Below, piece after piece: positions 46,112 to 62,009 of a DNA stretch of 64,000 nucleotides. A program made the translations under genes and the position numbers. This DNA is from Halogeometricum sp. S3BR5-2 (GTDB lineage: Archaea; Halobacteriota; Halobacteria; Halobacteriales; Haloferacaceae). Below the pieces are notes generated by a model, which was not told where the DNA came from, ran no database searches, and saw only the letters and a list, made by a program, of their open reading frames with translations. The stretch is taken from the NCBI RefSeq assembly GCF_031624635.1, contig NZ_JAMQOQ010000002.1, positions 868,001 through 932,000 on the forward strand, given 5' to 3'. Position 1 is the first letter of the stretch. Each line of letters opens with the position of its first letter.

Positions 46112-46193
46112 GGTGGGATGGCAGAGTGGACTATTGCGCCGGTCTTGAAAACCGGTGGCCTTCGGCCTCCTGGGTTCAAATCCCAGTCCCACC
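46112..46193 (+). tRNA. tRNA-Ser (anticodon TGA)
   Basis: 82 bases: acceptor GGTGGGA/TCCCACC, D arm, anticodon stem CCGGT/ACCGG around loop CTTGAAA (TGA), variable arm GGCCTTCGGCC, T arm CTGGG-TTCAAAT-CCCAG. Its 3' end is copied twice just downstream (see repeats). Confidence 0.95.
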
Positions 46194-46241
46194 GCATTCT
46201 GACGCGAGCACATCAGCGAGCACCGCGTAGCGTGTGCTCGC
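46174..46241 (+). repeat. 68-bp direct repeat, copy 1 (tRNA-Ser 3' end plus downstream hairpin)
   Basis: Begins at the T-loop GTTCAAATCCCAG of tRNA-Ser and runs through a hairpin (GCGAGCAC ... GTGCTCGC). Identical to 46454-46521. Copies of a tRNA 3' end are the usual footprint of integration by a tyrosine recombinase at attB. Confidence 0.9.
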
Positions 46242-46320
46242 TCTCCCCGTGAGCGTCGAATCGAATACGCTGGCGATTTGAATCAGGGAGCGACGTGAAC
46301 GGAGTGAACGAGCGACCGTG

Positions 46321-46342
46321 GTTCAAATCCCAGTCCCACCGC
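46321..46342 (+). repeat. 22-bp copy of tRNA-Ser 3' end (middle copy)
   Basis: GTTCAAATCCCAGTCCCACC followed by GC, identical to the tRNA-Ser 3' end, but followed by different sequence with its own 9-bp hairpin (ACGCCGCAG ... CTGCGGCGT, 46360-46383). No integrase gene lies between copies. Confidence 0.85.
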
Positions 46343-46453
46343 GTTTTGCGAGCGAAACCACACGCCGCAGTCTCGTCTGCGGCGTCCGCGTGAACGAGCA
46401 AACCGGAGACGGCTGGGATTTGAGCAGCGAGCAACGCGAAGCGTTGTGAGTGA

Positions 46454-46521
46454 GTTCAAATCCCAGTCCCACCGCATTCTGACGCGAGCACATCAGCGAG
46501 CACCGCGTAGCGTGTGCTCGC
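46454..46521 (+). repeat. 68-bp direct repeat, copy 2
   Basis: Exact second copy of 46174-46241, 280 bases further on. Preceded by CAACGC-GAA-GCGTTG, a perfect 6-bp hairpin, and by an inverted copy of the T-arm (CTGGGATTTGA at 46412-46422). Confidence 0.9.
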
Positions 46522-61735: not shown

Positions 61736-61913
61736 TCATCCACGTTGATTGTCGAACTCCCGCGAACCGAGTTCGGGCGCGGCGGGCGCCGAGACGGTCG
61801 TACGGCGAAACTGTAAGGATCGTTAGTAGTCGAACGGCTCCGTTCGGCGGCGTCCGTTTTCGACTTCTGACGAGAATCGGCGTCGATTCGGCCGTTGGAC
61901 TCCGACCGGAAGC

Positions 61914-62009
61914 GGAAGGGGCGGGATTCGAACCACGCGAAGCCGTAAACCCGGGCGACCCGAGGGTCGCTGCCGGAAATTTATCGCTCTACCACTGAGC
62001 CACCCTTCC
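61914..62009 (-). tRNA. tRNA-like sequence, possibly intron-containing or a pseudo-tRNA (anticodon perhaps TCC)
   Basis: 96 bases. Acceptor GGAAGGG/CCCTTCC pairs fully and the D arm GCTC-AGTGGTA-GAGC is perfect. The T arm keeps TTCGAAT but its stem pairs only with a bulged T (GCG-T-GG with CCCGC). The anticodon stem ATAAA/TTTAC is nearly all A/T with one mismatch, very unlike the GC-rich stems of other tRNAs here. Its loop is 30 bases and holds CCGG-CAG-CGACC-CTCG-GGTCG-C-CCGG, which could be a bulge-helix-bulge intron; removing it could leave TCC (Gly). Either a tRNA with an intron or a decayed copy. Confidence 0.45.

Follow-up and report, generated by a model that had tools for sequence, protein, structure and literature searches.

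Integron attC sites fold into hairpins whose outer arms are conserved, whose middle is irregular and whose top varies, and share the core consensus GTTRRRY, while MITE- and REP-type palindromic repeats are short, non-coding, hairpin-forming sequences present in many copies per genome. The hairpin units examined here resemble attC arrays in that they occur in tandem, each ending in a hairpin like a recombination site with its boundary at G/TT, and in that the outer arms of these hairpins are conserved, the middle irregular and the loop variable. Unlike integron cassettes, however, they are gene-less, with no integron integrase recognised by eye beside the window array; their core reads GTTCRAA, with C as the fourth base, and their arms correspond to a tRNA and change from one tRNA to the next. 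With MITE- and REP-type repeats they share short length, lack of coding capacity, hairpin formation and multiple copies, but they are confined to tRNA 3' ends, and both of their arms carry sequence of the resident tRNA.

The 3' ends of tRNA genes are also common attB sites, and the available sections of PMC8371274 describe archaeal tyrosine-recombinase elements of the SSV1, SNJ2 and pT26-2 types that carry a copy of the tRNA 3' end at their far border, with some cleavage points bordering the T-loop, as in our units. The units differ from the elements in those sections in measuring 100-150 nt, in lacking an integrase, and in forming one hairpin family across many kinds of tRNA. Casposons insert at a tRNA 3' end with a direct repeat as well; according to the available sections of PMC6614799, the A. 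boonei casposase recognises TCAAATC, a T-loop sequence, beside the end of tRNA-Pro and duplicates the 14-15 nt downstream of it. By comparison, our units have a repeat of different length and position and are gene-less, and most genomes that carry them lack Cas1 (see below).

The array behind tRNA-Ser(UGA)

The window, that is, the whole 64,000-nt stretch analysed, belongs to a haloarchaeal genome of 4.66 Mb (G000), and its tRNA-Ser(UGA) gene is followed by two hairpin units (Table 1). As a preliminary description had noticed, the end of the tRNA recurs twice downstream: nt 53-73 (GTTCAAATCCCAGTCCCACCG) are identical in the gene and in both copies. The 68-bp block that it reported as perfectly repeated is indeed exact (46174-46241 and 46454-46521), and the match extends to 79 nt at 96%. 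The spacers of ~110-125 nt contain hairpins only. Both hold the inverted T-arm pieces described earlier, GATTTGAA at 46275-46282, inside CTGGCGATTTGAA and with one additional C, and CTGGGATTTGA at 46413-46423, and each piece pairs with the copy 3' of it. The two hairpins proposed on this basis fold better than shuffled sequences both as DNA (z = -2.9 and -6.2) and as RNA (z = -3.6 and -8.1). A strong stem-loop had also been ascribed to each spacer. That of spacer 1 was recovered (z = -3.5 as DNA, -4.1 as RNA), whereas the corresponding region of spacer 2 folds no better than shuffles (z ~ -0.9).

Table 1. Positions of the tRNA-Ser(UGA) gene and of the downstream hairpin units in the window
Feature	Position	Strand	Basis or remark
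tRNA-Ser(UGA)	46112-46194	+	Rfam; end at 46195 by ARAGORN
Copied source sequence, tRNA nt 53-73	46174-46194	+	inside the tRNA-Ser(UGA) gene
Unit 1 HP1 (first hairpin region)	46195-46267	+	z -3.46 as DNA, -4.10 as RNA
Unit 1 HP2 (T-arm hairpin, type A)	46270-46333	+	R1 match G000:C2:914271-914333, 54.6 bits
Copy 1 of tRNA nt 53-73	46321-46341	+	sequence match
Unit 2 HP1 (sequence unlike unit 1 HP1)	46342-46412	+	resembles the single unit of G003
Unit 2 HP2 (T-arm hairpin, type B: GCAGCGAGC..GTGAGTGA)	46413-46465	+	z -6.21 as DNA, -8.13 as RNA
Copy 2 of tRNA nt 53-73	46454-46474	+	sequence match
Start of unit 1 HP1, repeated 3' of the last copy	46475-46521	+	completes the 68-bp block with copy 2

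In unit 1, HP2 is made up of the 5' arm CTGGCGATTTGAA, an inner part CAGGGAGC..GCGACCGTG, and a 3' arm that lies within copy 1. The type B hairpin of unit 2 gave no match to the covariance model described below (R1) at E <= 0.001. The repeat of the HP1 start after the last copy is found in the same arrangement in a relative (G004). In a search of Rfam 15, only the tRNA itself passed the gathering score and the units matched no Rfam family, and inspection of the ORF list by eye showed nothing like a recombinase in the 4 kb around the array. An assembly artefact is unlikely, because all five genomes of the genus that were compared carry this type of array behind that tRNA. The array genuinely belongs to a widespread family of non-coding hairpin units that are anchored at tRNA gene ends in Halobacteria. 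Elsewhere in the window, at 61913-62009 on the minus strand, Rfam finds a tRNA (43.5 bits) that ARAGORN misses; it probably contains an intron and has no downstream copy.

A hairpin family at tRNA ends

All 48 tRNA genes of G000 (Rfam model) were examined for a copy of their own last 22 nt, allowing at most 4/22 mismatches, within 600 nt downstream. Such copies were found for 15 of the 48, one of them (L020) being merely the neighbouring tRNA-Gly gene. Mismatched combinations of tRNA and downstream region gave 5 hits in 1580 pairs, and upstream regions 2 in 48; thus, the repeats do not arise by chance. The window spacers themselves, compared against G000, match nine places, namely the window and eight others whose coordinates lie beside tRNA genes.

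Searches of other haloarchaeal genomes found the unit family behind many tRNA genes. The right side of unit 1 supplied an exact 18-nt pattern (GCGACCGTGGTTCRAATC) that occurs in at least 120 stretches of GTDB genomes, of which 80 loci containing 84 matches were analysed; among these matches listed, nearly all loci are from Halobacteria. At the 80 loci, 68 of the 84 matches lie on the same strand as a tRNA and less than 600 nt downstream of it, and 56 of these 68 carry nt 53-73 of that very tRNA with at most 3/21 mismatches. The tRNAs concerned include those for Ser, Leu, Met, Arg, Lys, Val, Gly, Asp, Ala, Glu, Gln, Pro, Thr and Ile. Several of the remaining matches, in bacteria, seem fortuitous, and others can be seen to lie behind a tRNA end that ARAGORN did not call. 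The exact pattern has no match in IMG/VR, and the window's own units were absent from the phages and plasmids searched. A gapped pattern, CAGGGAGC..GCGACCGTG, matched 106 stretches of viral contigs, which we dismissed as chance (0/106 were counted with GTTC after it or TTTGAA/TTCGAA before it).

A covariance model (R1) built on an alignment of 44 hairpins (A1) matched 21 of 148 genomes of the phylum (E <= 0.001), with 1 to 19 matches per genome, G000 having the most (19). All 21 positive genomes are in the window's order, three listed members of which have no match; the other negative genomes belong to other orders, 107 unlisted ones having been placed by table sort order. G009, which may be Haloquadratum (99% complete, of the same family as the source and with an AT-rich tRNA-Ser trailer), gave no R1 match. 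All 19 matches in G000 are associated with tRNAs, 17 lying directly behind a tRNA gene and two behind the 3' half of a tRNA-Leu or tRNA-His. In 11 other genomes, where loci were hand-picked from R1-matched places rather than sampled at random, 75 of 78 matches lie behind a tRNA, with the copy recognisable at <=4/21 mismatches in 63 and at <=8 in 71; the 78 derive from 81 rows, after two reverse-strand readings of one palindrome and one further L292 unit were dropped. The family is apparently undescribed: among the open-licence PMC papers listed in searches for it, no title or abstract opening describes it.

The units share one architecture: HP1, a 5' arm that is the complement of the tRNA's T-loop and of the 3' strand of its T-stem, a short conserved inner stem, and the copy of nt 53-73. 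In the outer helix, 12 pairs join the 5' arm to tRNA nt 54-65 of the copy. Inside it lie the constant CAGGGA / GACCG, with two facing GA pairs, and then a variable stem; other inner types are B (window unit 2) and C (L090, L112, L140). At five loci (L008, L021, L034, L051, L081) we observed a shorter layout behind tRNA genes, with a generic hairpin followed by a copy of only ~tRNA nt 61-73.

The 5' arm follows the tRNA to which the unit is attached. After five elements with no arm anchor (L079, L101, L104, L108, L141) were set aside from 68, leaving 63, 57 of them distinct, the arm agreed with tRNA nt 57 in 56 of 57 elements and formed Watson-Crick pairs with nt 61-65 of its own tRNA at 191 of 285 positions (139±6 when shuffled, 0/5000). 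For nt 66-70 there was no excess pairing (80 vs 86 shuffled), the complementarity stopping at the acceptor stem. The two pairs beside the GA pairs (GC/AT and CG/GC/TA types) were paired in 55 and 58 of 59 units, compared with 31 and 21 after shuffling, 59 of 75 units being parsable for this count. Across the named structure, which was derived from the same alignment, 72 cells were changed on both sides vs 31±4, while RNAalifold on A1 returned just 12 pairs with weak covariation. The copies read GTTCRAA in 44 of 44 A1 rows, partly by choice, as the search pattern contained GTTCRAATC; those found by R1 also read GTTCRAA, with few exceptions. Decay of the copies amounts to 146/1368 in the acceptor part vs 38/684 in the T-stem part, these figures being sums of counts by position over copies that were required to have T-loop-like nt 53-61.

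Such quasi-palindromes could arise with no dedicated mobility, if slippage or template switching at the T-arm hairpin during replication duplicated and inverted pieces of the tRNA end and gene conversion exchanged the inner sequences. Direct and inverted tRNA-end pieces are indeed seen in several arrangements, some with shorter copies that follow other hairpins, and perfect tandem units exist (L072). Quasi-palindrome correction can match the arms of a hairpin, and would do so here. Yet the conserved inner motif is common to different tRNAs and genera, and the family is confined to one order, within which G009, a complete member, has no match. We regard replication errors as an improbable origin of the family.

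Filled and empty alleles

At tRNA-Ser(UGA), G000 has two units and four relatives of its genus have one each (2,1,1,1,1). The HP1 of window unit 1 is of the type found in G004 and G001, and that of unit 2 resembles the HP1 of G003. Where the tRNA has G57 in place of A57, the arm and the copy are changed likewise. Thus unit number and content vary among relatives, and the same immobile array in all of them, which the preliminary description had named as the outcome that would count against it, was not what we found.

A broader comparison comes from tRNA-Leu(CAA) in genus g14, taken to be Halorubrum because a 100% match to a Halorubrum salsamenti locus falls in it. Among 50 loci from 52 g14 genomes (G203 and G204 were left out), 23 are filled, 24 empty and 3 undetermined, with exact but unpolarised junctions; L332, which ends 26 nt after the tRNA, was counted as undetermined, giving 6 'empty a' loci. 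The filled allele reads tRNA - HP1a - HP2 - copy - HP1x - GGAAGACGCTC, and the empty allele tRNA - HP1x - GGAAGACGCTC. HP1x occurs as types a, b and c, in 2, 19 and 1 filled loci (one further filled locus being untyped) and in 6, 15 and 3 empty ones. The HP1a-HP2 part is the same before three different distal HP1 types, each of which is also found empty. One cassette that inserted into three backgrounds would leave this pattern, as would recombination at the 21-nt repeat. In four of the 15 'empty b' loci (L325, L326, L331, L341), a second, partial tRNA-Leu lies downstream, and in L325, L326 and L341 a unit can be seen to follow it.

Two further features of these loci were observed. The partial second tRNA-Leu, seen in six g14 loci (L312, L325, L326, L331, L333, L341) and in L295, has a variable-arm insert that resembles the type C inner hairpin. 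In addition, the g14 tRNA-Leu(CAA) trailer hairpin GGAAGACGCTC..GAGCGCTCTTCC (for example in L302) is conserved and stops at CTCGCA, which are also the final bases of the tRNA; in L290, from another genus, the trailer stem is different but has the same CTCGCA ending.

In 19 filled tRNA-Leu alleles there is hardly any variation in the hairpin, the copy or the following hairpin, while beyond the trailer agreement falls to about 30-60% in many columns. The unit is therefore either under selection or has recently spread in the genus. Within one genome, units behind different tRNAs are more alike than after shuffling of the labels (likeness 0.332 vs 0.257±0.013, 0/2000). Inner parts behind the same tRNA in different genomes are also somewhat alike (0.318 vs 0.252±0.024, 8/2000), and vertical inheritance therefore contributes as well. 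A rank test of same genome and different tRNA against different genus and same tRNA was not significant (p 0.10).

The main rival to a mobile unit is a selected RNA trailer: the units would be co-transcribed with the tRNA, and their hairpins would serve 3' processing, termination or tRNA quality control, the T-arm copy keeping the antisense 5' arm off the tRNA. The units do lie downstream of the tRNA on its own strand, both arms and the inner stem covary, and HP1, HP2, the copy and the following hairpin are conserved against a fast-changing flank in the 19 filled alleles. However, species within one genus differ in whether they have the units, the units stand behind just a minority of G000 tRNA genes, and they match no Rfam family. 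Mismatches in the downstream stems show no excess of G.T over A.C (36 vs 29 in stems of >=9 pairs, 18 vs 17 at >=10), although the T-arm helix taken alone has 27 vs 14. On balance we think a trailer selected as RNA unlikely, if less so than replication errors.

Integrases, casposases and possible cassette exchange

Tyrosine recombinases were found in 24 of 24 genomes tested, and G000 has real integrase islands. Its tRNA-Leu(TAG) is directly followed by an integrase island of ~10 kb (C1:80782-91060, L288) that encodes a tyrosine recombinase (PF00589 match at C1:81601-82035). The far end of the island repeats the tRNA from the anticodon arm onward, and the old hairpin unit lies intact beyond it. 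By eye, a 1303-aa ORF of the island resembles a type IIG restriction-modification enzyme and a 564-aa ORF a DUF262 protein, and the new tRNA 3' half has a different variable loop. A tRNA-His 3' half with a hairpin unit occurs far from the intact tRNA-His gene (G000:C5:1156, L289; G000:C6:299346, L056). The half at C5:1156 looks like the far end of L288 and has an integrase fragment at C5:124-570; it is probably the far end of another island.

In the preliminary description, the array was taken as a possible scar, left at attB by repeated integration and excision. Although tRNA 3' ends commonly serve as attB sites (PMC8371274, available sections) and tyrosine recombinases are ubiquitous in the genomes tested, we consider this reading very unlikely. 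In both integrase-linked tRNA displacements found in G000, the repeats are longer and begin in or before the anticodon region, and the units were displaced intact. The units themselves form a family of ~100-150 nt with its own conserved hairpin, and the exact pattern search of IMG/VR did not return them. The copies were separately considered as attR scars of an integrase element and rejected as such: no element or integrase remains between tRNA and copy, where the ~110-125-nt spacers hold hairpins alone, and the L288 island differs.

No enzyme is implicated by linkage to the units. Y1 transposases (PF01797) occur in 12 of the 21 genomes with an R1 match and in all 3 tested that have none. The casposase offers, by analogy, a precedent for the recognition of a T-loop sequence, and insertion of short DNA by a Cas1- or casposase-type enzyme, with the tRNA end duplicated as target site, would account for each copy having the sequence of the resident tRNA. 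Cas1 (PF01867) is nevertheless present in only 6 of the 21 R1-positive genomes, G000 having one, and missing in 15, though a past enzyme is possible. The duplication here also covers ~21 nt including TCAAATC, compared with 14-15 nt downstream of the motif in the available sections of PMC6614799, and the 5' arm would be left unexplained. We rate casposase-type insertion as highly improbable.

Our favoured reading, to which we give about an even chance, is that the units are non-coding, gene-less cassettes gained and lost by recombination at tRNA 3' ends. We favour it because the units carry copies of their own tRNA, their matches are bound to tRNAs, arms and inner stem covary, filled and empty alleles exist, units within a genome resemble each other, and unit numbers vary in the window's own genus. 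The family, its restriction to tRNAs, the matching of both arms to the resident tRNA and the covariation of the inner stem are established here, as are the exact filled and empty alleles at one tRNA and the arrays of one to several units. Movement, in turn, is inferred from comparing the sequences of alleles. Recombination at the repeated tRNA end, from G53/T54 to 73, would bring units in and take them out, perhaps through a host tyrosine recombinase or through homologous recombination between the 21-nt repeats. Transfer to another tRNA would duplicate nt 54-73 of that tRNA, and either selection or palindrome correction might later match the 5' arm to it. Two such cassettes would then stand in the window: unit 1, as in G004 and G001, and unit 2, with its HP1 as in G003. 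The earlier suggestion of a small mobile repeat that moves by copying tRNA ends comes near to what the comparisons show, and is partly supported by presence and absence at exact junctions and by related inner sequences that each stand with the end of their own tRNA.

Some points speak against mobility of the cassettes, the vertical inheritance noted above among them. Loss could be plain homologous or slippage deletion between the 21-nt repeats, the conservation of the hairpin in filled alleles far beyond that of the flank fits a host function, and insertion alone leaves the matching of the 5' arm to each tRNA unaccounted for. More speculatively, the cassettes could form a tRNA-anchored system that uses the T-loop as its landing site. 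Each cassette would bring an attC-like folded T-arm hairpin along with the tRNA end without which the tRNA would be broken, and a host recombinase that acts on folded single strands would move the gene-less cassettes around within tRNA loci and from one locus to another; this extended scheme strikes us as doubtful.

The units rebuild the end of whichever tRNA precedes them, on both arms of a hairpin, and fit no element family tested. For annotation, such tRNA-end copies can be mistaken for the att sites of integrated elements. If the units are mobile, they would show how minimal, gene-less DNA can colonise essential genes harmlessly, and they would constitute a natural recombination landing pad at many tRNAs in Halobacteria. 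If instead they are selected as RNA, they would be a structure of tRNA trailers shared across the class. In either case, the filled and empty alleles allow a direct test in cultured species.
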